A stretch of DNA of 64,000 nt from Candidatus Iainarchaeum sp. (GTDB taxonomy: Archaea > Iainarchaeota > Iainarchaeia > Iainarchaeales > UBA10219): the NCBI GenBank assembly GCA_018304425.1, contig JAGVWE010000007.1, positions 1 through 64,000 of the forward strand, written 5' to 3'. Shown in pieces: positions 42,700 through 55,517 of this stretch. Made by a program: the position numbers and the translations under genes. Every line of letters starts with the position of its first letter. Position 1 is the first letter of the stretch. The notes beneath the pieces are model-generated. The model saw only the letters and a list, made by a program, of their open reading frames with translations, was not told where the DNA came from and ran no database searches.

Positions 42700-42941
42700 C
42701 AACTACGTTGCGGGTGCAACTGCCGGAGGAAAAAGCCAGAAAGGTGCGGGAGCAAGCCATGAAACGCTTCGGTTATTCGAAAGGGGCCATCAGCAAGGCG
42801 CTCAATGTGGCCTTGGATGAATGGTTGGGGAAGGCGAAACCAGCCAAACCGCCTATCACGGCCAAGGACTTGTTAGGGCGGCTGAGTGGCGTAAAGGAGT
42901 CCTCCGTGGAACTCCAGCACAAGGCTCGTGACTATTGGTAG
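42693..42941 (+). CDS. VapB-type antitoxin (RHH)
   Basis: 82 residues. The opening strand and helix ATTTLRVQLPEEKARKVREQ and YSKGAISKALNVALDEWLG form a ribbon-helix-helix domain; the C-terminal AKDLLGRLSGVKESSVEL would bind the PIN partner. It ends 8 bases before the PIN gene. It is divergent from another VapBC pair, with 137 bases between the two starts holding both operators. Confidence 0.75.
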   Translation: MATTTLRVQLPEEKARKVREQAMKRFGYSKGAISKALNVALDEWLGKAKPAKPPITAKDLLGRLSGVKESSVELQHKARDYW

Positions 42942-42949
42942 GCTGTGCC

Positions 42950-43354
42950 ATGTATTTGCTGGACACCAACATTTTTTTGGAAATCCTCCTCGATGGCGCA
43001 CGCGCCACCGAATGCCTGCGCCTGCTCTCCCTTTTGCAGGGCGAACGGCTGTCTGCGGTTGTTTCGAAGTTCGCGGTTTATTCGATTTGCCTGATTCTTT
43101 TCAGGAAAAAACAACCCGATCTGGCCCGGGATTTCCTGGCCTATCTGGATTCCCTTCCAACCCTGCAAATCCATGGGACCTCCCTTGAGGAGGATGCCGA
43201 AGCCTTCGCCAGCGCGGAGAAATTTGGCCTTGACTTTGACGACGGCCTGCAGTTTACGGTTGCCAAGCGCTTGAGCGTGGAAGCCATCGTCTCCTTTGAC
43301 CGGGACTTCGACAAGACCCCCTTGAAGCGCCTGGAGCCAAGTCAAATCCTTTGA
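42950..43354 (+). CDS. VapC-type PIN toxin
   Basis: 134 residues from ATG 42950 (MYLLDTNIFLEILLDG). PIN residues: Asp in LLDTN (about 5), Asp in LDFDDGLQ (about 93-94), Asp in VSFDRDFDKTP (about 117-120). The Glu usually in the second helix position is weak (AVYSICLILF), as in a subset of PIN proteins. A predicted Mg-dependent RNase. It follows its antitoxin by 8 bases. Confidence 0.75.
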   Translation: MYLLDTNIFLEILLDGARATECLRLLSLLQGERLSAVVSKFAVYSICLILFRKKQPDLARDFLAYLDSLPTLQIHGTSLEEDAEAFASAEKFGLDFDDGLQFTVAKRLSVEAIVSFDRDFDKTPLKRLEPSQIL

Positions 43355-43368
43355 CGAGAACCGCTGTT

Positions 43369-43533
43369 TCACTCGGCTTCCGTTTCCTGTCGTCTGACCC
43401 GAAGGAAGATGCCCGCCGCAATCAGGGCCGCGAGCGCCATCGTGAGTTCGTCGTACTCGGGGATGACGTTGAGGGTGTTGCGGCTGCCGAAGGCGCTGGT
43501 CGTGGTTGGACGGGAAAACCGCTCGTTTCCCAT
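43369..43533 (-). pseudogene. PEY-type C-terminal tail fragment A
   Basis: In minus frame it reads MGNERFSRPTTTSAFGSRNT, then LNVIPEYDELTMALAALIAA, then GIFLRVRRQETEAE. The last 40 residues match the end of the large surface protein at 48316-52128 almost exactly (NTLNVIPEYDEITMALAALI there). Only the sorting-signal end exists here, so it is best read as a remnant of a lost surface-protein gene or a recombined tail. It overlaps the 3' end of the VapC copy in another frame. An ATG at 43533 keeps a 54-residue open frame, so translation as a small membrane peptide cannot be excluded. Confidence 0.7.
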
Positions 43534-43952
43534 ATCGTCAGTAAAACATTTGGCGGTGAAATATGACAGTCGAATATTCTGTTGAGCCCTGGTACGCGCT
43601 TGAAATGCCTGGCGTTCCCGGTCAACAGGGTTTCCCGGGCTTGGAGGGCAATGGCCGCAATCATGCAGTCCTGTGGTTCGATGGGTTGGCCGGTTTGCCA
43701 GAGTCCTTGCTGGATTTCGCCTGCCTCGTTTGCGGCTTGGGCATCCAATGGCAGGGCAGGCAGGGAGGAAAAGAGTTCGCGGACGCGTTGCCTTTCTTCT
43801 TTTCCGGCGCGGTGGAGGCTTTGAATGACTTCAAACACGGTGATAGCCGTCGTCAGCAACGGTTCGCCTTTTCGCTTCAACTCCTCCGCCTTGGCGGCCG
43901 CACCCTTTTCTCCCCTGATAAGGTCAATGACGTAGCTGGTGTCAAGAATCAT
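43422..43952 (-). CDS. VapC-type PIN toxin, copy 1, with altered C-terminus
   Basis: From ATG 43952 (MILDTSYVIDLIRGEKG). Asp about 4, Glu in TVFEVIQS (about 41), Asp in EPQDCMIAAIAL (about 96) and the ending LLTGNARHFKRVPGL give a full PIN domain by about residue 125. The remaining 50 residues (from SPPNVLLTIWETSG) are the surface-protein tail DNA read out of frame, so the natural C-terminus was replaced when the module joined the tail. It overlaps the antitoxin gene by 4 bases. A second copy lies at 45751-46326. Confidence 0.75.
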   Translation of the reverse strand: MILDTSYVIDLIRGEKGAAAKAEELKRKGEPLLTTAITVFEVIQSLHRAGKEERQRVRELFSSLPALPLDAQAANEAGEIQQGLWQTGQPIEPQDCMIAAIALQARETLLTGNARHFKRVPGLNRIFDCHISPPNVLLTIWETSGFPVQPRPAPSAAATPSTSSPSTTNSRWRSRP

Positions 43953-44182
43953 GGACGGAAGCCTTCCATGAGGGCGCGACTCCGCGCCAGGCCGGTGGCT
44001 CTCGACGCTTGCACGGCTTCCTCCACCGTTGCCGTGGTCTTCTTGGACAGTATGCCCGCGAATTTCGTCAAATCCGTTTTGTTGGTGAGCCTGCAAATCA
44101 CTTGGCTGAAGCTCTCCCGCGCTTTTTTGCTGGAGGCCAGGCGCTTATAGGCGTCCACCGTAATCGAAATCGTTTTCGTTGC
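43949..44182 (-). CDS. VapB-type antitoxin, copy 1
   Basis: About 77 residues from TTG 44182, read ATKTISITVDAYKRLASSKK; longer in-frame starts would pass through the promoter repeats. The N-terminal strand-helix pattern (TKTISITVDAYKRLAS, then FSQVICRL) is that of AbrB/RHH-type VapB, and the C-terminal AVQASRATGLARSRALMEG would bind VapC. Upstream on this strand are a TATA-like CTTAAATAC and the repeated ACATAC steps 44204-44219. Confidence 0.65.
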   Translation of the reverse strand, partial: ATKTISITVDAYKRLASSKKARESFSQVICRLTNKTDLTKFAGILSKKTTATVEEAVQASRATGLARSRALMEGFRP

Positions 44183-44261
44183 CAATCTCCCACCTACACA
44201 TACATACACATACGTGTATTTAAGGCTTTGGCTGGAAAAGTGGTCGCCCTCGTTTATGCCA

Positions 44262-44366
44262 TTAAACGGTTTTCCCGCGTTCCATGCGCCTAATCCATCC
44301 GAAGGCGAGCGCGGCCAGTAGTACGGTCAAGGCCAGCGTGTAGTCCTCGTATTCTGGGTTCACCTC
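44262..44366 (-). pseudogene. PEY-type C-terminal tail fragment C
   Basis: In minus frame it encodes EVNPEYEDYTLALTVLLAAL then AFGWIRRMERGKTV and a stop at 44262. It has the same three parts as the other tails (PEY, hydrophobic helix, arginines) but is diverged in sequence. It begins 2 bases after the AbiEii stop and extends out of frame from it, with no start of its own. Read as another truncated surface-protein end. Confidence 0.6.
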
Positions 44367-44368
44367 GG

Positions 44369-45148
44369 TTAATGCTTTTTCAGCCCATTTTTTTGAATCC
44401 GTTCTTCAATTTCTTTTTTCACTTGGGGAAAGGAAGGCAGCGGGCCGCCAACCAGCCCACCCAAGTCCCGTTCCCAACTGCCTTTTTTTTCGTCCACTTT
44501 GGCCCAGAAACCGTCTGGCGTGAACCGGAGCCCGGCATGCGCCATTTTCCTGCTTATGAGCCCCGGTTCGGCGGGCACGCCTCTTCGTTTCAGCAGGTGC
44601 CAGAGGTCGTAGACGTCCCTGGCCTTGTTTCTTTCATGGATTGCCCTGATTTTTTCGGCAAGGATTTCTTTTTCGTCCATGGCAAACAGATTGAATGGCC
44701 GGATCTCCCGATAAATCGGGGCATACGGAAACGTTTGAACGGGCAGCAGCACGCGTTCCCTCAAGCTGATGTTGACGGCAAGGGAGGTTAGGCTTTCCTT
44801 GCTGCCGTCGTAAAGCGGCCCCCTTGCCTGCACGTAAACGTTTGTGCTCCTTTCAAACGCTTCCACGGTTGCCTTCGCCTTTACGTCCAGCAAGCTGAAA
44901 AGGCCGGGTAACCGCGTAAAGAAATTTTTTGGCTTGAAGCCTTTTCCAGCCGTGAAGTCGAGGTCTTCGCTGAAACGGTCCAACTTGTACGCCTTGTATA
45001 GGCAGGTTCCGCCTTTAAAGACGAGCTTGCTCCCGAACTCCCGGTAAATGTTTATCAAGGCCAGGTCCTGCAGGTAATCCAATTCCGTGAGCCGGAGGCT
45101 GAGGCCCTTGAATTTTGCGACGGCCTGCAGTTCTTCACGCTTGAGCAT
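44369..45148 (-). CDS. AbiEii/DUF1814-type nucleotidyltransferase toxin
   Basis: 259 residues. GSKLVFKGGTCLYKAYKLDR then FSEDLDF (about 39-66) are the GG/T-S and DxD-like motifs of the family; ILAEKIRAIHERNKARDVYD (about 160-179) is the conserved C-terminal region. Predicted to nucleotidylate tRNA or a similar target. It overlaps its antitoxin gene by 14 bases. A surface-protein tail fragment lies directly after its stop. Confidence 0.85.
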   Translation of the reverse strand: MLKREELQAVAKFKGLSLRLTELDYLQDLALINIYREFGSKLVFKGGTCLYKAYKLDRFSEDLDFTAGKGFKPKNFFTRLPGLFSLLDVKAKATVEAFERSTNVYVQARGPLYDGSKESLTSLAVNISLRERVLLPVQTFPYAPIYREIRPFNLFAMDEKEILAEKIRAIHERNKARDVYDLWHLLKRRGVPAEPGLISRKMAHAGLRFTPDGFWAKVDEKKGSWERDLGGLVGGPLPSFPQVKKEIEERIQKNGLKKH

Positions 45149-45722
45149 GCAGCGCCTCCCGCAATTTTTTGGCCCAGCCCCTCGCCTTTTTCGCGTGAAG
45201 CAAAAGCCTGTCCCTGTTGATTTTCCGCTTGTTGTTTTTTATGATGTCCACGGCCTCGGCCAAAGACATTTTCCTGGTCGCCAAGGCGTCCACGATTGCT
45301 TTTTCTTTCTCGGCCAAGAAGATTTCCCGGCCCTGGTAGGTCGTCCGCTGGAAGCCGGTGAAGGCGGTTTCCTTGATTTTGATGAATTCAATCCGGGCGT
45401 TCCCATAGGAAACGATTTTTTTCTTCCTCTTCCGGGTCGTGATTACATGGATGGTGAACGGCAGTTGCTCCGTCAATTTATGGTAGTTTAACGCCGCCCA
45501 GCACGAGATATAACTTGGCCAGACGATCCATGACGCCACGAGGAATGAATCCGTTTCCAGCGTGTACTTGCCCTTCTCGATTTCGTGGAGGACGCCCGCC
45601 TTTTTCAGCCGGTGTGCGACGAGGTACGCGTAATCAATGCCTTTATGGAGCGTGTCGGCGAGGTCCCTGGCCGTAAAAACCGGGTACGGCTTTAATGCCT
45701 CCAGCTCCTTCTTTTTTATCAT
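45135..45722 (-). CDS. AbiEi-type antitoxin regulator
   Basis: 195 residues. The N-terminal winged helix is at about 10-65 (FTARDLADTLHKGIDYAYLV, LKKAGVLHEIEKGKYTL), followed by the AbiEi C-terminal domain (IVWPSYISCWAALNYHKLTE, QLPFTIHVITTRKRKKKIVS). It pairs with the nucleotidyltransferase by overlap. A short inverted repeat, TATCA-AAAC-TGATA (45734-45747), lies just upstream and may be its operator. Confidence 0.85.
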   Translation of the reverse strand: MIKKKELEALKPYPVFTARDLADTLHKGIDYAYLVAHRLKKAGVLHEIEKGKYTLETDSFLVASWIVWPSYISCWAALNYHKLTEQLPFTIHVITTRKRKKKIVSYGNARIEFIKIKETAFTGFQRTTYQGREIFLAEKEKAIVDALATRKMSLAEAVDIIKNNKRKINRDRLLLHAKKARGWAKKLREALHAQA

Positions 45723-45750
45723 TCCACCAACCTTATCAAAACTGATATGA

Positions 45751-46326
45751 TTAGCCGCCCAACAATTTATAAGGCTTTTCGCTGGTGTTGCCGCCTAATC
45801 CCTGCAAACGCCATGGCCGCCAGGATAACGGCCAGCGCCATCGTGAGTTCGTCGTATTCGGGGATGACGTTGAGCGTGTTGTGGCTGCCGAAGGCGCTGG
45901 TCGTGGTTGGACGGGAAAACCGCTCGTTTCCCATATCGTCAGTAAAACATTTGGCGGTGAAATATGACAGTCGAATATTCTCTTGGCGTTCCTGGTCAAC
46001 AGGATTTCACGGGCTTGAAGGGCAATGGCCGCAATCATGCAGTCTTGTGGTTCGATGGGTTGGCCGCTTTGCCAGAGCCCTTGCTGGATTTCGCCTGCCT
46101 CATTCGCGGCTTGGGCATCCAATGGCAGGGCGGGCAGCGAGGAAAAAAGTTCTTGGACGCGTTGTTTTTCTTCTTTTCGGGCACGGTGCAGGCTTTGAAC
46201 TACTTCGAACACCGTGACGGCCGTCGTCAGCAACGGTTCGCCTTTCTTCTTCAATTCCTCGGCTTTGGTGACCGCACCCTTTTCCCCCCGAATCAGGTCA
46301 ATGACATAGGTGGTGTCAAGAATCAT
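45751..46326 (-). CDS. VapC-type PIN toxin, copy 2, with altered C-terminus
   Basis: From ATG 46326 (MILDTTYVIDLIRGEKG). It is very similar to copy 1 up to LLTRNAKRIFDCHISPPNVL. Compared with copy 1 it lacks about 9 residues (HFKRVPGLN), so the last PIN strand is damaged and activity is doubtful. As in copy 1 the C-terminal 60 residues are tail DNA read out of frame. The start overlaps the antitoxin gene by 4 bases. Confidence 0.7.
   Translation of the reverse strand: MILDTTYVIDLIRGEKGAVTKAEELKKKGEPLLTTAVTVFEVVQSLHRARKEEKQRVQELFSSLPALPLDAQAANEAGEIQQGLWQSGQPIEPQDCMIAAIALQAREILLTRNAKRIFDCHISPPNVLLTIWETSGFPVQPRPAPSAATTRSTSSPNTTNSRWRWPLSWRPWRLQGLGGNTSEKPYKLLGG
45767..45934 (-). pseudogene. PEY-type C-terminal tail fragment B
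   Basis: Same layout as fragment A: MGNERFSRPTTTSAFGSHNT, LNVIPEYDELTMALAVILAA, then MAFAGIRRQHQRKAL and a stop at 45767. The first 45 residues match fragment A closely; the last 20 differ, so the helix and basic end were diversified or exchanged. It overlaps the VapC copy 2 reading frame. Its end lies 45 bases upstream of the AbiE antitoxin start. Confidence 0.7.
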
Positions 46327-46559
46327 TGTTGGAGGCCTTCCATTAGGGCGCGACTGCGTGCCAGGCCGGCAGCCCTTGACGCTTGCACGGCCTTTTCCAT
46401 GGTGGCCGCGGTTTTCTTGGACAAGATGCCCGCGAATTTCGTCAAATCCGTTTTGTTGGTGAGCCTGCAAATGACTTGGCTGAAGCTTTCCCGTTCCATT
46501 TTACTAGAAGCCAGGCGCTTGTAGGCGTCCACCGTAATCGAAATGGTTTTCGTCGCCAA
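46323..46559 (-). CDS. VapB-type antitoxin, copy 2
   Basis: About 78 residues read ATKTISITVDAYKRLASSKM, nearly the same as copy 1; TTG 46559 corresponds to the copy 1 start, with GTG 46568 as an alternative. The upstream CCTACACATACATACACATA promoter stretch is identical to copy 1 over about 35 bases, marking the right edge of the duplicated segment near 46600. Confidence 0.65.
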   Translation of the reverse strand: MATKTISITVDAYKRLASSKMERESFSQVICRLTNKTDLTKFAGILSKKTAATMEKAVQASRAAGLARSRALMEGLQQ

Positions 46560-46650
46560 AGCTATCACCTACACATACATACACATACGTGTATTTAAGG
46601 ATTTGGTTGAAACCGCCTTCTCTGCCCAGTCTGCCCGGTTTGCCCAGGCC

Positions 46651-46896
46651 TCACCGGTCTTTCCCGCGTTCCCTGCGCCGGATGTGCGCGAACGCCATCG
46701 CCACCAGGGCCACGGCTAGCAGCAGGGTTAGGTCATCGTACTCGGGGATGACGTTGAGGGTGTTGGGGCTGCAGGCGCTCGTCGTGGTGTAGAGGTCGTC
46801 GGCCACCACGCGGATGTAATAGTCGCCGCTGGTGATGTCGCAGTTCCAGGCGTACACGCAGTTGATGTCTTGAGGTCGCAGACGGGTGGAGACCAT
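46651..46896 (-). pseudogene. PEY-type C-terminal tail fragment D (longest)
   Basis: 81 open codons: INCVYAWNCDITSGDYYIRV, then ADDLYTTTSACSPNTLNVIP and EYDDLTLLLAVALVAMAFAH with RRRERGKDR. Its first part matches the end of the last Ig-like domain of the surface protein (CLYSWTCDVTIGNYYLRVEA) and the rest is the PEY tail. It is clearly the 3' end of a lost or truncated paralogue. It begins exactly at the 3' end of the DUF234-type ATPase gene. Confidence 0.75.
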
Positions 46897-48272
46897 CAGC
46901 CGAATGTTTCTTCAAGATCCTTCAAGTCATAGAGGTCGGCGTTTTTTTCGTCGATCTTTTTTTCCTTGAATGATTTCGCGAATAGGCAATACCGTTCCGT
47001 TCTGTGCTCTTTGAACCAGCTTACTTTTTCCGCTTTTTGTTTGAGTTTTCGCAGCAGGCTCTCGGCATCGACTTTTTCTTTCCACTTGCATTCGCAGAAG
47101 AGTGCGCTTTTTTTTGCCTTGCTAAGGCCCACGATGTCTATTTCTTCGCCTTTATCCCACCAGCTGCCGATGAGGTAGTCCTTGAAGGCGGCATTTTTGG
47201 ACAGCCGGTCTCGGCACACCTCTTCGAACCCTTTGCCGATGAAGGCGTTCAGTTCGGGCTCTATTTTCTCGTTTAAGAGGTTTTTCTGCTTGCGTTGTTC
47301 TACGTAATCCATGTTTTCAAACACGAAGCGGAACCAGAAGCGGAAGAAAGGGTCTTTCAGTTTGTAGATGCCTTTCCTCGATTTTTCCTTTCGCTCAGTA
47401 ATGGGCACGGCACGCTCGACGAGGTCAAGGTCAATCAATACGCCAAGGTATTTGTTTACGGTGCCTTTTTCCAGGCCCGTGTCGTTGACGATGCGCCCGA
47501 TGCCGGTGTTGCCCTTTGCGATGGCGGCCACGATGGAAAAATAGTTTCTCGGCTCGTCCAGTTCCTCCCGCAGCACGAACATCGGGTCCCGGAACAGGAA
47601 GGACTGCTTTTCCAGGATTTTTTCCCCGATATTGGAAACCAGCGTTTTCGTGTAATCAAATTCAAGCAGGTAGGCAGGGGTGCCACCGAGCACCGCGTAG
47701 TAACTGATTTGTTTTTTGATGTCCATCGTTTTCGGGAAGAAATGGCGGGCTTCGCTGAAATCAAGGGGGTCAAGCTTCATTTGATGTGTTCGCCTCCCGT
47801 AGAGGGGACTCTTATAGCCGAGGAGTTTTTCCATCATGGAGACGCTGGAGCCGCATAAGACGAAGAGGCAGGGCATGTGTTGGAGTGCCTTATCCCAGTG
47901 GTCTTGCAGAATGGAGGGCAGCGAGGGGTTAGCTTGTACGAAGTAAGGGAACTCGTCCAGGAATACGGCGAACGGTTTTTGCTTCAGTTTTTCGGCGAAG
48001 TAGGAGAAAACGGAGTCGAAGTTGCCAAAGGGCCTTGAATTCAGTTGTTCATCGTTGAAAAACTCGGCGCAGGCCCTGCTGATATGCTCCAATTGCTTGT
48101 GTTCGGATTCCTGCCGGCCCAGCAGGTAAACAGCGGGATGATTTTTTGTGAATTCCCTTAGTAACTCGGTTTTGCCGATTCTACGTCTGCCGTATACTAC
48201 GGCTAGCACTGGCTTTTTTGCCGACCAAAGCGTTTCAAGCAACTGTAGTTCCTTCACCCGGTTGTAAAACAT
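46896..48272 (-). CDS. Archaeal AAA+ ATPase with DUF234-type nuclease-like domain
   Basis: 458 residues. Walker A is VVYGRRRIGKTELLREF (about 25-41), Walker B AVFLDEFPYF (about 101-110) and sensor-like VLCGSSVSMMEK (about 138-149). A winged helix follows (GIGRIVNDTGLEKGTVNKYL), and the C-terminal DUF234 region has EEIDIVGLSKAKKSALFCEC (about 381-400), a restriction-endonuclease-like D-(E)xK pattern. These ATPases are abundant in archaea, often mobile, and of uncertain function. It lies 43 bases after the surface-protein gene, and tail fragment D follows it directly. Confidence 0.8.
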   Translation of the reverse strand: MFYNRVKELQLLETLWSAKKPVLAVVYGRRRIGKTELLREFTKNHPAVYLLGRQESEHKQLEHISRACAEFFNDEQLNSRPFGNFDSVFSYFAEKLKQKPFAVFLDEFPYFVQANPSLPSILQDHWDKALQHMPCLFVLCGSSVSMMEKLLGYKSPLYGRRTHQMKLDPLDFSEARHFFPKTMDIKKQISYYAVLGGTPAYLLEFDYTKTLVSNIGEKILEKQSFLFRDPMFVLREELDEPRNYFSIVAAIAKGNTGIGRIVNDTGLEKGTVNKYLGVLIDLDLVERAVPITERKEKSRKGIYKLKDPFFRFWFRFVFENMDYVEQRKQKNLLNEKIEPELNAFIGKGFEEVCRDRLSKNAAFKDYLIGSWWDKGEEIDIVGLSKAKKSALFCECKWKEKVDAESLLRKLKQKAEKVSWFKEHRTERYCLFAKSFKEKKIDEKNADLYDLKDLEETFG

Positions 48273-48315
48273 AGTAAACTCTAAAGTATACTACTTATGA
48301 GAATACTATTTAAAC

Positions 48316-51300
48316 CTATGGTTTGGCCGCCCGTCGCACGCGCAGGAAGATGCCTGCCGCGATCAGGGCCGCGAGCGCCATCGTGATTTCGTCGTACTCG
48401 GGGATGACGTTGAGGGTGTTGGGGCTGCAGGCGTTGGTTTTGGTGAACCCGTCGTCGGCTTCGACGCGGAGGTAGTAGTTGCCTATCGTTACGTCGCAGG
48501 TCCAGGAATAGAGGCAGCTGGTGTCATCCGGGTTGCAGGCCGCCGTGGTCTGGCTGATGTTGCCGATGATGAGGTTGGTGTTGTTGGCGCAGGTGCTGGC
48601 GTCCGTGCCGTAATAAATGCTGAAGTTGACGTCGTCGAGGTCGGCATCGTCGGCTGTCCATGTAATGTCGTAGGGGGTTGGAACGGTGCAGCTCTGCCCG
48701 CTGCCCGTGGGCGCCACGCTGCTCACGGCCGGCGCATCGTTGGCGCTGATGAGGACGCTGCCGGACTGCTGCTTGATTTGCTTCTTGTTGAGGACACTGT
48801 TCCAGATGAAGACTGAGTCTAAGTCTATATGTGCAAAACCAAGATTATCTAATCTTTGCCCAAATATGATTTTTTGGTCTTCATCACTCATCGTGGTATT
48901 ACCCGAACTGGCCCTAAGAACGCCATTAACATACAATCTTCCGCCAACAGTAGTATTCGCCGTCCCTGCGACATGTATCCAGGTATTTTGAGGGAGTGTA
49001 TCTACTGCAGTCAACAAGTTAGCGGTGCCCGACGCACCATATACTAAAACAATATCCTGAGGGAAAGCATCAGCAGCGGTTCTAAAATCGAAAGGTGCAG
49101 GAAAGTTATTATTCGTTGATCCATTTTTTTCGACCATGGGATTATATACTGCAGATTGTGCTCTTACCCAATATGCTACAGTAAATGCCGTGCTAAGACT
49201 AGAAGTCAAATCTGCAATCTCGACTTTGTCATCTACCCCATCAAATTTCAAGTCAGTGTATTCAGCCGGTGTCATAGGGGTGTTCGTGTCCCATCTCGGG
49301 CCGGAAAGCAGTTCCCCATGCTTGTTGCCAGACGTTGCATCCCAGGCCCGGATGGCGTTGCTGTCGTCTTTGTTGAAGTTCCACGCGCTGACCAGCCCGC
49401 TTTCCGTGCCCATTAGTTGTTTGGGCGTGCTGTCTTGTCCAATGTTCTTGGCTTTGTCGTAGACGTTGACGTCGATGAAGTAGTTTTGGTCTGCGAGGCC
49501 AGCGGGGTTCCAGTCGTAGAAGCATAGCACGTTCTGGTCGAAGAAGTAACGGGGTTCGCTGGCGTAACTGGTTCCGCCGGGCGCACTGCAGTTGGCGTCG
49601 TTGGTGGGGTTGCGGGCGAGTTGGGCGAGGTTGACGTCGGCAGCGAATTTGCCTGACGTGTTGAAGTCGGCCGCGTAGAGGCTCGCGTAGAGGCTTGCAT
49701 AGAGTTCGTCTTCTTCGCGGAAGTTGCCACTAGCTGGGAGGGGAGCGTAGGAAGTGTCTCTCACCGTGAACTTGACGAGGATGTTGCCGTCCGTTTTCTG
49801 GTAGTGCGAGCCGCCTTCCGGCCAAAGCAGGTTGGCGTCCGGTCCGTTCGTGGTATGCGTGCCACAGTAGTTGTTGCAGCGGTTTATGTAGCCGCTTTCT
49901 TGGTGGATGAAACAGGTGTTGCCGCCCGAGCATTGCCCGGAAGCAGTGCAGGCCGGGTTGCAGCCCCATTGGTTGATGAAGTCCGTGGGCCAGGCGGACG
50001 TGATGTTGGCGGTGGTGGCCGCAATGTTGAAGTCGATGTCAGCATAGTAGGTGGCTACGCCTAATGTGCCGGTACTGATATTGCAGGGCGCGAACAGGAG
50101 GTTGAAGTCGTACTCGGTGCCGCCCGTGTAGCTGCCGGCACAGGTGATGTTCGCGGTGTTGTCGGGGGCGCTCGAATAGGTGCGTGAACAGCCGGTGGGT
50201 AGCAGGGGCGCGCTGACGAGGGCAAACGTTTTGTAGGGGATGTCGGGGGAGTCAATTAGGGGGTCGTTGCAGGTGTAACCGACTTGTTGGGGCGCCGGTA
50301 CGAGGGGCGTGGCATGGTTGCCGCGTATGGGGGTGAGGAGCGATGTCGCATAGTGGGGCTCGATTTTGAAGCCTAGGTTGCCGCTGACATTGGGCATGAC
50401 TTTGAGTCTCACGAGGTATTGGTGGGTGTTGGTGTCCGTGGTTGTCAGGTTGAAGGTGAAGTTGGAGTCGGGACTGCAGGCCATGTTGTTGCCGTCTCCG
50501 GCGCGGCCCACGAGGTCGCTGGGGCAGGTGGCGGGCGCGTTGGCGCCGTTGAGGTCAATGCTCGCGTAGAGGACGGCCGCGTTCCAGTCATCAATCCAGT
50601 CCATGGGGTACATGCGCCACGCGCCTCCCGAGGTCCCGCCGTCGGCTGAAAGGTTGAGGTCTTCGGCCTGGATGTCGGTTGTTCTGGGATGGTTTGCCCA
50701 GCGGCAGGGTTTGACGGTGATTCTTCCAGCGTACGGGGTGCCGCCGGCCAAAGTAGTAGTGGCGTTGCCGTCGTCTCCAACGTAATTGGTGTCGGTGAGC
50801 GTCCAGTGGGGGTTGCGGAGGCCGGCCGTGTTGCCCGTGGTTCCAAACCAGCCGTTGGGGCTGAGGGGGCTGTCAATGAAGTCAACGATTTCCCAGCGGG
50901 GAAGGTTGAGGTCGATGGGCTCCCACAGTGCCCCCCCGAGTATGGGGTCTGAGAAGCATTTGTTGCCCGCGAAGGCGGTGGAATTGTTTGGTACGTAGCT
51001 AATGGGTTTGCCTTGTCTTACGCCTGCGTCCACGTTGTGGTCGCCGTACGGCGAATCCCATTTTCCGACGGCGCCCGCCGAATAGCGCAAGCCAAAGTTG
51101 TTGTCGATGCTGCGGTGGATGTTGCTCATGATGTTGTAGTCGATGACGTAATTGGTGTCCAGGATGAAGGCCGTGTCGGGCGTGCAGTAGGGGAGTTCCC
51201 CGTTGGTGTCGATTTCGCCGTTATTGGCGTTTCCGGCGTACACCATGCCTCCCATGCTGGTGTGGCTGACGAGGGAGCGGGTGCCGTTCTCGACTTTGAC

Positions 51301-52128
51301 GCAGTTGATGTTGTTGCCGGTCAATTCGAGTCCATGGTAGATGGCGTTCACGTTCCAGTCATCGATGAAGTCCAGGGTGTAGGGTTGGGCACCGCAGTTG
51401 CCGAGGTTGCTCTGGTCGTAAAAACGCACGTCCAGGCGCTGGGGGTGGTTCACGAACCGGCATGGAATGGCGGTAGTCCATTTCCCCGCGCATCCGATGA
51501 TTCCCCCGGGGCACATCGGGGGCGGGGTGCCACAGGCTGTGCAAGTATTCGGGTTGGGGCAAATCAGTCGTTCGGCGAGGTAGCTGGTGGTGGGGGTCGT
51601 GGAGGTGCAACCGCATCCTTGTCCGGGGGGAACGCAGGCACCGAACGCGGTCTTGGCGCCGCCGATGCAGGCGCCGCCTCCGAGGTTAGCCGTCGTGTTG
51701 ACCGCCCATCGGGGCCCGACTCCGGACTTGTTCTCGTCGTTGATGCATTGCCAGCCGACTTCATAGGCCAAGGTCTTGCTGGGGCCGTTTCCACAACTCC
51801 AGATTGCGTTGAAGCTGGGACATGTTTCGATGCTGATGTTCTCGTCGTAGCTGGGATCAAGCCCCAGGGCTTCGGTCATTTCGAGTTCGAAGGCCCCGGC
51901 CGCGCGTTGGGTTAAGGGTCCAAGGCCTTGGTCTAGGCCGGGGGCATAGGCGTCGATGGGAGTGCAGGAGTCAACTCCTCCCGCCGTCGTCGCACACGGG
52001 GTTCCGGCGCCTCCCGAGTTCGGGCCGCCCCAAGTCAATTCCATGGCGTGTCCGGTGAGGATGGCGGATAGGGCCAGGGCGAGCGCCACCAGCGTCCATC
52101 CGGTCGGCCATCGGATCTGTTTACCCAT
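48316..52128 (-). CDS. Giant surface protein with LamG domain and PEY-type C-terminal signal
   Basis: 1,270 residues. The signal peptide is WTLVALALALSAILTGHA (about 11-28). The first 900 residues are Cys-, Asn- and Thr-rich beta repeats with many glycosylation sequons. A LamG/concanavalin-like domain spans about 925-1125 (GLVSAWNFNKDDSNAIRAWD, YTDLKFDGVDDKVEI). An Ig-like domain follows (about 1135-1235), then NVIPEYDEITMALAALIAAG and FLRVRRAAKP, a tripartite sorting-type end. The gene stretch encoding LamG (about 48780-49280) is visibly AT-richer than its flanks, suggesting domain acquisition. Probably cell-wall or envelope attached and glycosylated, perhaps for adhesion. Confidence 0.75.
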   Translation of the reverse strand: MGKQIRWPTGWTLVALALALSAILTGHAMELTWGGPNSGGAGTPCATTAGGVDSCTPIDAYAPGLDQGLGPLTQRAAGAFELEMTEALGLDPSYDENISIETCPSFNAIWSCGNGPSKTLAYEVGWQCINDENKSGVGPRWAVNTTANLGGGACIGGAKTAFGACVPPGQGCGCTSTTPTTSYLAERLICPNPNTCTACGTPPPMCPGGIIGCAGKWTTAIPCRFVNHPQRLDVRFYDQSNLGNCGAQPYTLDFIDDWNVNAIYHGLELTGNNINCVKVENGTRSLVSHTSMGGMVYAGNANNGEIDTNGELPYCTPDTAFILDTNYVIDYNIMSNIHRSIDNNFGLRYSAGAVGKWDSPYGDHNVDAGVRQGKPISYVPNNSTAFAGNKCFSDPILGGALWEPIDLNLPRWEIVDFIDSPLSPNGWFGTTGNTAGLRNPHWTLTDTNYVGDDGNATTTLAGGTPYAGRITVKPCRWANHPRTTDIQAEDLNLSADGGTSGGAWRMYPMDWIDDWNAAVLYASIDLNGANAPATCPSDLVGRAGDGNNMACSPDSNFTFNLTTTDTNTHQYLVRLKVMPNVSGNLGFKIEPHYATSLLTPIRGNHATPLVPAPQQVGYTCNDPLIDSPDIPYKTFALVSAPLLPTGCSRTYSSAPDNTANITCAGSYTGGTEYDFNLLFAPCNISTGTLGVATYYADIDFNIAATTANITSAWPTDFINQWGCNPACTASGQCSGGNTCFIHQESGYINRCNNYCGTHTTNGPDANLLWPEGGSHYQKTDGNILVKFTVRDTSYAPLPASGNFREEDELYASLYASLYAADFNTSGKFAADVNLAQLARNPTNDANCSAPGGTSYASEPRYFFDQNVLCFYDWNPAGLADQNYFIDVNVYDKAKNIGQDSTPKQLMGTESGLVSAWNFNKDDSNAIRAWDATSGNKHGELLSGPRWDTNTPMTPAEYTDLKFDGVDDKVEIADLTSSLSTAFTVAYWVRAQSAVYNPMVEKNGSTNNNFPAPFDFRTAADAFPQDIVLVYGASGTANLLTAVDTLPQNTWIHVAGTANTTVGGRLYVNGVLRASSGNTTMSDEDQKIIFGQRLDNLGFAHIDLDSVFIWNSVLNKKQIKQQSGSVLISANDAPAVSSVAPTGSGQSCTVPTPYDITWTADDADLDDVNFSIYYGTDASTCANNTNLIIGNISQTTAACNPDDTSCLYSWTCDVTIGNYYLRVEADDGFTKTNACSPNTLNVIPEYDEITMALAALIAAGIFLRVRRAAKP

Positions 52129-52236: not shown

Positions 52237-52309
52237 GGGCGTGTAGTCTAGTCTGGTAGGATACCAGCTTTGGGAGCTGGCGACCTCGGTTCAAATCCGG
52301 GCACGCCCA
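52237..52309 (+). tRNA. tRNA-Pro (TGG anticodon), intact copy
   Basis: The acceptor GGGCGTG pairs with CACGCCC, discriminator A; the anticodon stem CCAGC/GCTGG encloses TTTGGGA (anticodon TGG); the T loop is TTCAAAT. No intron and no CCA. Its 3' part (from the anticodon loop on) recurs at 53941-54033 and 55456-55497, bracketing two ATPase genes. Confidence 0.93.
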
Positions 52310-52418
52310 TCCTTTTAAAGCCGCTTTTTTTCTTGGCTGGGCTGGGGGAGCCGCTTCTAGTGCCAAGCCTGCTTTGTCTATCAGGGCAGGGCCTGCACGA
52401 AGATTATTATGCCTGGTG

Positions 52419-53624
52419 TTAAAACCGGATGGCGGGTTCTTTTTCCGTGAGCCATTCTTGGAGGTTCTTGTTTTCTATTTCGATGTTTTCTTCGGTGCTT
52501 TTGCTTGTCTTTCCGGGGTAGAGGATGGTTGCTTTCAGGGCCTTGTTTTTTTTGCAGAATTCCATCAGGCCTTCCTTTTCCCTTTTTGGCAGGTTTTCGG
52601 AGTAACAAACGTTTATCGGCAACAGGCTCGTTTTTTTCTTTGCGACGAAATCGACTTCCCCGGCGTTTTTCCAGTAATAGGCCTCGAATCCCCGGTGCTT
52701 GAGTTCGATTGCAACTGCTGCCTCGGCAAGCCTGCCCCTGTCTTCGGTGAATGACTTTGAAGCGTATTGCTGCATTCCCAAGTCAAAGGCAAAGACCTTT
52801 CTGGGCTTTGAAAGGGATTCCTTTAGGGAGAACGAAAAGAACGGGACCTGGAAAACCAGGAAGGAGGCTTCCAGGTAACCCAGGAACTGTCTTATCGTGT
52901 CGTACGACAAGCCAAGGGCGACCCGCATTTTTTTCAGGCTTACTTGTTTTCCGGAGTTCGTCAACAGGTAAAACGCAAGGTTTCGTAAAGCCGCAGGGTC
53001 TCTCACGTCATGCCGCGTAATTATGTCTTTAATCAAGGCGAGTTCGAAATAGGACTCCAACAATTTTTCTTTTTTTTCGGGGTGCAAGGCGACTTCAGGG
53101 TAGCCCCCAATCTTGAGGTAGGCGTTAAGGCCTTTCTTGGTTACGCGCTGAAACTCGCTGAAAGAAAAAGGCAGTACTTGAAAACCAATCCCCCTTCCAC
53201 CCAAAGAAGTCGCAAACTCGCTGCTCAAGAGCTTTGCGGAAGAACCCGTGACTATTACCTGGCACTGCCGTGTGTCGACGGCCCTTCGGACCCATTTCTC
53301 CCATCCCTCGACTAATTGCACTTCATCGAAGACAAGGGTGTCTTTCGCCTTCAAGCCGTCTGCAAAAGCGTCCAGTAAATCGGTGTTCAACGAGCCCACA
53401 AGCTTCGGGTCTTCCAGGTTGACGTACCGTGTCAACGTGTTCTCCGGCATTTTTTTCAGAAGCCTTCGGGCGACAACGGATTTCCCTGAACGCCTGGGGC
53501 CATACAAGAAAACGACGTTGCGACTGCCCACGAAGGGCAGTATGTCATCTTCAACGTCTCTTTTGAAGGTAGTCTCTTTGACGGCCCATTTTTCCAGAAG
53601 CTCGCCTAATTCCCTTGAAAGCAT
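52419..53624 (-). CDS. AAA+ ATPase with DUF4143-type domain, A
   Basis: 401 residues. Walker A VVFLYGPRRSGKSVVARRLL (about 38-57), Walker B DTLVFDEVQLVEGW (about 96-109), sensor VIVTGSSAKLL (about 124-134), a winged-helix region (NSGKQVSLKKMRVALGLSYD) and a C-terminal DUF4143 nuclease-like region with AYYWKNAGEVDFVAKK (about 320-335). These standalone ATPases are widespread, mobile and of unknown role. It sits between the intact tRNA-Pro and the copy with an insert, as a cassette of about 1.7 kb. Confidence 0.82.
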   Translation of the reverse strand: MLSRELGELLEKWAVKETTFKRDVEDDILPFVGSRNVVFLYGPRRSGKSVVARRLLKKMPENTLTRYVNLEDPKLVGSLNTDLLDAFADGLKAKDTLVFDEVQLVEGWEKWVRRAVDTRQCQVIVTGSSAKLLSSEFATSLGGRGIGFQVLPFSFSEFQRVTKKGLNAYLKIGGYPEVALHPEKKEKLLESYFELALIKDIITRHDVRDPAALRNLAFYLLTNSGKQVSLKKMRVALGLSYDTIRQFLGYLEASFLVFQVPFFSFSLKESLSKPRKVFAFDLGMQQYASKSFTEDRGRLAEAAVAIELKHRGFEAYYWKNAGEVDFVAKKKTSLLPINVCYSENLPKREKEGLMEFCKKNKALKATILYPGKTSKSTEENIEIENKNLQEWLTEKEPAIRF

Positions 53625-53910: not shown

Positions 53911-54033
53911 GGGCGTGTAGTCTAGTCTGGTAGGATACCAGCTTTGGGAAAGCCTTTTTTGCTTGCGCAAAAAACCCTTGGGAAAAGGGCTTCCAGCGTG
54001 CTGGCGACCTCGGTTCAAATCCGGGCACGCCCA
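53911..54033 (+). tRNA. tRNA-Pro (TGG anticodon), second copy with 50-nt insert
   Basis: 53911-53948 and 54000-54033 match the intact tRNA-Pro exactly. The 50 or so bases between, just after the anticodon, form nested stems: AAGCC (53950-53954) with GGCTT (53988-53992), enclosing TTTTTTGC/GCAAAAAA (53955-53974) and CCCTT/AAGGG. The position matches the canonical archaeal 37/38 intron site, so an intron is the first choice. An inactivating insert is the alternative, since the intact copy lacks it. A bulge-helix-bulge could not be confirmed by eye. Confidence 0.65.
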
Positions 54034-54072
54034 TCATAGTATAGTTCCAATCAGCTTGTCCTTGTGGGTAGC

Positions 54073-55332
54073 TTACCTTTCAAGGAGCCATTTCCAGGCA
54101 GGCGTCACCCTTGTCTTGCCGATTCGGGTTTCTTGGTCATACGTTATGATGATGCCTTTCCTGCCGCCAAATCGTTGGATGGCTTCCTCTAGGCCCCTGG
54201 TTTCGCGTTTCTTGTTTTCTTCGGTGAGCGTGTGGCACACCTGTATGCAGGCATCCTTGGTTAGGAAGTCGCATTCAAATCCGTTCTTGTAATAGTTTAT
54301 TTCAGTGTTGCCACGGCGGAACAATTCCGTGAACACAATGTTTTCCAGTATTCTGCCGGGGTCTTTTTCGGTGTTGTAGTAGTTGATGAAGCCATGGTCG
54401 CAGACATAGGCCTTTTTCAGGTAGGCCGATTCCTTTTTGAAGGATTTTTGTTTTGCATTGACAAAGAAGCAAAAGTATGCGTCTTCAAGGCATTTCGAGT
54501 ATTTCTGTATAACGGAGGTGCTGGATTTGTAGCCACTGCTTTTCGCAAAGTTGTTGAATTTGTTCATTGAGTACTCGGAAGCATATTGCCTCGTGAGGTT
54601 CTTCATGAGCAACCGCATCAGTTCGATGTTCTCTACCTTGAACCGCTCGACGATGTCCTGGAATAGCGTGGTTTTGAAGTATTGGTCGATGAACTCCAGC
54701 TTCTTTTCCAGCACTATTTCCGGGAACCCACTCAGGTGCATGAACTCGTCAAACGCTTTTTTTACGGCTGCTTTGGTTCCATTGAACTCCCAATTCCTGC
54801 CCGGGCGGATGCCCCGTATTCCAAGGAATTCCTTGAATGACAAGGGCATCACTTGAATGGGATAGTCCCGTCCCCTCACGGCAGTGGCGATTTCCTTGCT
54901 TAAAAGCCTCGAATTGGAGCCGGTGACATAAACCCGATAAGCTTCGTCGTTCACGCGCCTGACGAATTTTTCCCAGCCCGCCACATTCTGGATTTCGTCA
55001 AAAAAAAGCAGGGGTCTTTTGTCCGGGTAAAGCTCGCCATAAGCTTCCAGTGCCAGCCCCAGCTGGCTGGCTTTCATTTCCGAAATCCGTTCGTCCTCGA
55101 AATTAAGGTAGAGAAAATCAACCAAATCCAAACCCTTTTTCAGGTGTTCCTGCATGATCTGGTAAAGCATGTAGGTTTTGCCGGCCCTCCTGGGACCAAG
55201 GATTACGAAAACCTTGTTGACCTCCTTGAATTCAGGCACTTCGACGTCTCTCTCGAATGCCTTCGGCAGCCCCCTTGAATGAAAACCCGCAATGGCTTCC
55301 TTGACGGCTTTCTTTATCTCGACATCCAGCAT
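54073..55332 (-). CDS. AAA+ ATPase with DUF4143-type domain, B
   Basis: 419 residues. Walker A VILGPRRAGKTYMLYQIM (about 42-59), Walker B LLFFDEIQNVAGWEKF (about 108-123), sensor VYVTGSNSRLLSKEIA (about 134-149), and the C-terminal region with NYYKNGFECDFLTKD. It is a different subfamily member from ATPase A (low identity), so the two cassettes did not arise by recent duplication of one gene. It lies between the second tRNA-Pro and the 3' tRNA remnant, a cassette of about 1.5 kb. Confidence 0.82.
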   Translation of the reverse strand: MLDVEIKKAVKEAIAGFHSRGLPKAFERDVEVPEFKEVNKVFVILGPRRAGKTYMLYQIMQEHLKKGLDLVDFLYLNFEDERISEMKASQLGLALEAYGELYPDKRPLLFFDEIQNVAGWEKFVRRVNDEAYRVYVTGSNSRLLSKEIATAVRGRDYPIQVMPLSFKEFLGIRGIRPGRNWEFNGTKAAVKKAFDEFMHLSGFPEIVLEKKLEFIDQYFKTTLFQDIVERFKVENIELMRLLMKNLTRQYASEYSMNKFNNFAKSSGYKSSTSVIQKYSKCLEDAYFCFFVNAKQKSFKKESAYLKKAYVCDHGFINYYNTEKDPGRILENIVFTELFRRGNTEINYYKNGFECDFLTKDACIQVCHTLTEENKKRETRGLEEAIQRFGGRKGIIITYDQETRIGKTRVTPAWKWLLER

Positions 55333-55455
55333 ACTATACTAGCCCCCCAACAGCTATTTAAATCTTTCTTTTAAAAGAAAGAATTATGGCAAAATTGTTC
55401 TCTTAAAAGAATGCTTTTGCCTGCGGCCATTAGTCTGGCCCGGCAGGCTGCCCCA

Positions 55456-55497
55456 CTTTGGGAGCTGGCGACCTCGGTTCAAATCCGGGCACGCCCA
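55456..55497 (+). pseudogene. 3' remnant of tRNA-Pro (TGG)
   Basis: 42 bases from CTTTGGGAGCTGG to CACGCCCA are identical to the anticodon loop through discriminator of the intact tRNA. Upstream, TAGTCTGG at 55433-55440 recalls the D arm, but a palindromic GC insertion (GCCTGC and GGCAGGC) disrupts the rest, so no acceptor 5' strand exists. It may be an attachment-site copy left by integration into tRNA-Pro, or a decayed tRNA. Confidence 0.75.
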
Positions 55498-55517
55498 TTC
55501 GCCTTCTATTTTCCCTC

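Follow-up and report, generated by a model that had tools for sequence, protein, structure and literature searches.

Why should a row of small gene cassettes each end in a copy of the tail of one and the same surface protein? The question is raised by the minus strand of a 64,000-nucleotide (nt) stretch of Candidatus Iainarchaeum sp. DNA, hereafter the window (contig C7, positions 1-64000), which belongs to a genome of 1.48 Mb in 7 contigs that is 92.6% complete. Read in the direction of transcription, an intact surface-protein gene is followed by a DUF234 ATPase gene, tail fragment t2, a VapBC unit (copy 2), t3, an AbiEi/AbiEii pair, t4, a second VapBC unit (copy 1) and t1, with a convergent VapC gene (42935-43354) directly adjoining t1 (Table 1). 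We consider it rather likely that this row is a stacked array of insertions at the 3′ end of the surface gene, where compact cassettes with neither integrase nor transposase were inserted at gene 3′ ends and duplicated the end in doing so.

The tails and cassettes listed in a first-pass annotation of this DNA were recovered at the same positions by a 20-mer search, profile searches and domain matches. The 20-mer at the codons of the IPEYD motif occurs four times in the genome, always within the array (shuffled sequences predict none), and genome-wide profile searches return five PEY tails, likewise all in the array (E values of 1e-18 to 1e-29 with a tail-core profile; next match, E of 4). Four of these are 3′ fragments, which leaves the surface gene as the only full-length gene with the tail, as the annotation had it. 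Because the genome holds no tails beyond the array, the check put forward with the annotation, for an enrichment of toxin-antitoxin (TA) genes beside tails elsewhere in it, is void here. Each fragment retains an open frame and a stop codon, the degenerate NPEYEDYT fragment t4 being without a start codon. The copies have the shape of an archaeosortase signal, with IPEYD, a hydrophobic stretch and RR at the C-terminus, and the genome encodes an exosortase/archaeosortase-family protein at C1:451927-452664 (PF09721, 26.1 bits against a cut-off of 25.7; TIGR04178, 30.9 bits against a cut-off of 23); in a scan of the intact protein and three of the fragments, no NCBIfam CTERM model exceeded its cut-off.

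The cassettes themselves comprise, beside the ATPase, two pairs of VapB antitoxin and PIN toxin (type II TA) and one pair of AbiEi and AbiEii (type IV TA). At the first junction, the stop codon of the DUF234 gene and the start of t2 overlap (TGATG). Both VapC genes have lost their natural C-terminal residues and stop codon, and reading passes into the tail in another frame; 46-48% identical homologues end in GLEVETY or similar followed by a stop, about 5 residues past a GL motif. With their C-termini cut in this way, the activity of both VapC proteins is uncertain.

Duplicated gene ends at unrelated loci

The layout of the array recurs, in a single order of intact gene, one TA or ATPase cassette and copy of that gene's 3′ end, at unrelated genes of relatives, which were compared as stretches of G003, G012, G013, G023 and G029, most of them picked regardless of content. 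In G023, a DUF234 ATPase gene carries a 101-nt direct repeat (95% identity) that is the 3′ end of the adjoining geranylgeranyl-reductase (GGR)-like gene, stop codon included; this locus first turned up while relatives were being checked for surface genes, and its repeat is no surface tail. A Fic gene stands between a DUF192 gene and a copy of the DUF192 3′ end in G012 (85 nt at 92%), a DUF4143 gene between a reverse-transcriptase (RT) gene and a copy of the RT 3′ end in G003 (112 nt at 96%), and a LAGLIDADG gene between tRNA-Thr and a 3′ half of that tRNA in G029 (48 nt at 94%), and in G013 a tRNA-like 95-nt repeat surrounds a DUF1761 gene. Where the case is clean, the repeat ends no more than about 5 nt from the stop codon or tRNA end. 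The first-pass annotation had suggested that the tail DNA is an insertion or recombination hot spot. A hot spot is supported by this recurring duplication of 3′ ends at unrelated genes and by the mosaic tails described below, but since the duplicated ends in relatives come from reductase, DUF192, RT or tRNA genes, the tail DNA as such plays no special part.

One cassette has two targets in a single genome. G003 holds two DUF4143 genes that are 87% identical, one behind the RT gene with its 112-nt 3′ copy and the other behind a tRNA-Thr gene with a degenerate copy of the tRNA 3′ part. The DNA of the pair is 85% alike from about 100 nt ahead of the ATPase start, and the likeness breaks off exactly at the stop codon of the ATPase gene. 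These limits, together with the two targets, indicate that the unit that moved is a promoter plus one open reading frame (ORF) and that the gene-end copy belongs to the target.

Flanking repeats are also enriched around such genes. Using a criterion of a direct repeat of at least 40 bits between the two 500-nt flanks, they were found at 10 of 45 TA, ATPase and homing-nuclease ORFs, a class list set after the first cases had been seen and labelled with small home-made profiles, against 13 of 1924 other ORFs, some of which are partners of TA genes or carry other repeat types (Fisher p 1e-11, or 3.7e-8 without the window). The sequence sampled for these counts was 2.39 Mb, taken as stretches of the host genome and the relatives; stretches from the host genome, and a few of the rest, were picked for containing TA/ATPase genes or surface genes. 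By family, repeats flank 2/2 DUF234 genes and 3/5 DUF4143 genes (4/5 if the degenerate tRNA case is counted). Compared by translated ends, the fragments outside ORFs derive from C-termini in 9 cases, from N-termini in 4 and from the middle of a protein in 1. The remaining TA/ATPase loci sampled in the host genome are mostly without gene-end copies, the repeats there being paralogues, promoter repeats or an unidentified repeat, and viral DUF4143 relatives (about 30% identity) have no flank repeats.

Other repeats lie near TA genes in the same sample. In a row of TA genes in G023 (PIN and MazE-like; L197 9754-13233), every unit is followed by one and the same repeat of 60-100 nt, present in four copies, and three copies of a repeat of about 60 nt surround a YhcG nuclease gene and a YoeB/ParE-like unit in G003 (L168 17121-18983). 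On contig C1 of the host genome, Fic and AbiE units are parted by copies of a GC-rich repeat (L097 10233-12908), and one 56-nt sequence (86%) occurs upstream of two neighbouring TA-like cassettes (L092 4238-4293 and 5957-6009).

A second array stands within the window itself, at tRNA-Pro (positions 52237-52311, 53911-54036 and 55424-55500), where each of the two gaps between tRNA repeats holds one DUF4143 ATPase gene. The intronless and the intron-bearing tRNA-Pro copies share identical exons. At the far end of the window, about 42 kb from the surface-gene array, the only integrase-like match is a weak one (C7:110-313); positions 140-598, at the contig start, hold the C-terminal part of a tyrosine-recombinase-like ORF with a zinc ribbon.

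Table 1. Features of the surface-gene array and the tRNA-Pro array, in window coordinates.
Feature	Position	Strand	Remarks
VapC-to-tail block, copy 1 (99 nt)	43482..43580	minus	identical to copy 2
Tail fragment t1	43369..43533	minus	5′ half t3-like, 3′ half like intact gene
VapC (PIN) toxin, copy 1	43587..43952	minus	final ~5 residues and stop lost
VapB antitoxin, copy 1	43949..44209	minus	VAPB_antitox
Tail fragment t4	44262..44366	minus	NPEYEDYTLALTVLLAALAFGWIRRMERGKTV then stop; most degenerate
AbiEii nucleotidyltransferase toxin	44369..45148	minus	stop codon ~8 nt ahead of t4
AbiEi-like antitoxin	45135..45722	minus	weak AbiEi Pfam match; firm in PADLOC, 112 bits
Tail fragment t3	45767..45934	minus	5′ half t1-like, 3′ half t2/t4-like
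VapC-to-tail block, copy 2 (99 nt)	45883..45981	minus	AT-richer; 100% identical to 43482-43580
VapC (PIN) toxin, copy 2	45985..46326	minus	C-terminus and stop lost; frame continues to 45751
VapB antitoxin, copy 2	46323..46568	minus	VAPB_antitox
Tail fragment t2	46651..46896	minus	171 nt, 77% identity to intact gene's end
DUF234 ATPase	46896..48272	minus	ATPase_2 + DUF234; PADLOC candidate PDC-S27; stop codon adjoins t2
Tail of intact surface gene	48316..48444	minus	ends in NTLNVIPEYDEITMALAALIAAGIFLRVRRAAKP then stop
Intact surface-protein gene	48316..52128	minus	1270 amino acids, Laminin_G_3 domain; sole full-length gene with PEY tail; host gene of the array
tRNA-Pro(TGG), intact	52237..52309	plus	intronless; host of second array
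DUF4143 AAA_14 ATPase	52419..53624	minus	PDC-S01; between tRNA-Pro repeats
Second tRNA-Pro copy	53911..54036	plus	identical exons, 50-nt intron
DUF4143 AAA_14 ATPase	54073..55332	minus	PDC-S01; between tRNA-Pro repeats
tRNA-Pro 3′ fragment	55457..55498	plus	anticodon loop to 3′ end

The duplicated VapBC unit and mosaic tails

The annotation had counted four unrelated cassettes, each capped by a tail. A tail does stand behind each of them, but VapBC copy 1 with t1 and VapBC copy 2 with t3 are one duplicated unit (43430-44237 against 45831-46612, 86%), so that there are three kinds of junction and not four. Within this duplication, divergence is uneven. The stretch separating VapC from the tail is the same in both units at 98/98 sites, while VapBC differs at 79/630 (12.5%), a rate at which such a run of identity has a P of ~2e-6. 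Further into the tail, t1 and t3 are identical at 42/45 positions in the 5′ half and at 34/69 in the 3′ part, and the 3′ half of t1 matches the intact gene at 16/16 amino acids, compared with 8/16 for t3. In essence, beyond a point inside the tail, t1 follows the intact-gene type and t3 the type of t2 and t4. Moreover, the tail ends just ahead of the two VapBC units (t2 and t4) have 17/18 nt in common. The identical block, the switch of tail type and the common tail ends together suggest that the tails have probably exchanged partners.

Origin of the tail copies

We infer that insertion, rather than the inheritance of old duplicates, made the tail copies, in at least three events at the surface gene and with later exchange between tails that would have made or homogenised the two VapBC units. 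In each event, a small cassette of 0.7-1.4 kb, consisting of a TA pair or one nuclease-type ATPase with its own promoter, would insert just past the stop codon of a gene, keeping that gene intact and leaving its final ~80-170 nt repeated beyond the cassette, and the cassette may then be retained because it is addictive or defensive. The likeliest agent would be a trans-acting recombinase or the repair of breaks at gene ends; possible mechanisms are such a recombinase, staggered breaks followed by fill-in, and illegitimate recombination facilitated by homology.

Several observations weigh against stacked insertion. The tail copies in the array are diverged (77-88% DNA identity), and amino-acid changes per site between them are fewer than silent changes (pN < pS), which indicates that the tails diverged as working coding sequence and did not arise as neutral remnants of a single recent duplication. 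Of the fragments, t1 lies farthest from the intact gene and resembles it most, where simple stacking predicts another order, and a max-chi breakpoint test confined to the short tail gave no significant result (p 0.10). The rule that repeats end at the gene end, clean in relatives, is blurred in the array by divergence, and at the HisRS gene of G012 (L152 781-2831) the order is reversed, with the copy of the HisRS 3′ end followed by a methyltransferase gene as cargo and then by intact HisRS. No integrase or transposase was found among the ORFs in or adjoining the array. Finally, the host family is represented by this one genome in the comparison set, and relatives of the tail, the surface protein and its VapC neighbours are absent from the genome-contig and viral-contig collections searched.

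The divergence of the tails under coding constraint and the missing integrase would both be accounted for by homology-facilitated illegitimate recombination, which we regard as unlikely on balance. Here, [gene-cassette] DNA from another strain would pair at one side with the resident gene and, at the other, join by microhomology inside that gene's 3′ end, with no special enzyme, and differences between the copies would go back to those between donor and recipient alleles. That the fragments vary in their 5′ ends and that VapC lost its C-termini at the junctions would follow as well. What this process leaves unexplained is the coincidence of repeat ends with gene ends at unrelated loci, the invariably short fragments (35-170 nt) and the presence of one cassette behind two targets, an RT gene and a tRNA, in a single genome.

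Less likely again is the decay of a tandem array, in which several paralogous surface genes with PEY tails stood in a row, cassettes landed inside them and deletions spared the tails only. Such a history would suit tails of two 3′ types that diverged as coding sequence, and a relative does carry tandem surface genes adjoining DUF4143 and DUF234 ATPases. It requires at least three deletions, however, each halting just behind a cassette gene, and no 5′ remnant of the surface gene or upstream ectodomain was found ahead of any cassette, between tails and cassettes; also unaccounted for are the reductase, DUF192, RT and tRNA genes with this layout. The missing remnants, and a host gene that is intact at other loci, speak against a further suggestion of the first-pass annotation, that cassettes replaced surface-protein ectodomains. 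Lastly, the tails could have been kept for a function, as small translated membrane peptides or cassette terminators, and the open frame and stop in all of them, the TGATG overlap and pN < pS would agree with this, but with no start codon in t4, a frame in t1 and t3 that differs from VapC's, DNA folding no better than shuffles (z-scores -0.4 to 0.9) and copies in relatives derived from genes of other functions, we regard it as highly improbable.

Returning to stacked insertion, only tentatively would we extend it to a general proposal, in which TA pairs and the nuclease-ATPase genes of the DUF234 and DUF4143 kinds form a class of minimal mobile cassettes. With no known integrase or transposase, these would go in exactly at the 3′ end of a protein or tRNA gene and copy the final 35-170 nt of that target. 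If true, this would explain how lone TA and candidate defence genes spread in tiny archaeal genomes with no visible mobile-element machinery. The gene-end copy behind a cassette would then be a sequence mark by which such insertions could be found in any genome, and short C-terminal 'ORFs' behind TA genes would be displaced gene ends and not genes.

Comparison with known systems

Diversity-generating retroelements (DGRs) resemble the array in that a surface-type gene carries a repeat at its 3′ end, of which a second copy lies downstream. For the window a DGR was rejected, as the differences are not adenine-directed (6/39 at a template A) and no RT adjoins the array. A true DGR is present in G003 (L160 5819-9695), with an FGE-sulfatase target gene and its variable region, bAvd, a template repeat and an RT, where 12/14 differences fall at template adenines. 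In the Xer/pdif modules of Acinetobacter plasmids, TA cassettes are moved without a recombinase of their own; the repeats here differ from those modules in being the ends of various genes rather than dif-like sites, for which no search was made. Integron gene cassettes, which have been described from Archaea too (PMC9668308), share the row of promoter-ORF units with a repeat after each, but the repeats here are host-gene ends. An integron was rejected because the best match to IntI (TIGR02249) reached 112 bits against a cut-off of 265 with the IntI-specific middle part unmatched, and because the tails are without attC-type folding (z-scores -0.4 to 0.9).

The ATPases strongly match the PADLOC single-gene candidates PDC-S01 (DUF4143) and PDC-S27 (DUF234), matches that make them candidate single-gene defence systems and would fit their retention. 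The first-pass annotation knew of no described system with this layout, and in the literature searched, largely open-access papers, we likewise found no description of a cassette followed by a gene-end copy, or of DUF4143 or DUF234 genes placed at gene 3′ ends with the end duplicated.

The array behaves like a 3′-end integrative element, yet lacks the integrase that this family requires. As at the attL and attR ends of such elements, with their displaced 3′ end, an intact gene stands on one side and a copy of its 3′ end on the other, the direct repeat on both sides of the insert being the target gene's 3′ end and stopping at the gene end; where the target is a tRNA, the repeat begins close to the anticodon loop, as in those elements. 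The differences are that the cassettes here hold one or two genes without an integrase, and that one cassette is found behind unrelated genes, with gene-end copies of different sequence.
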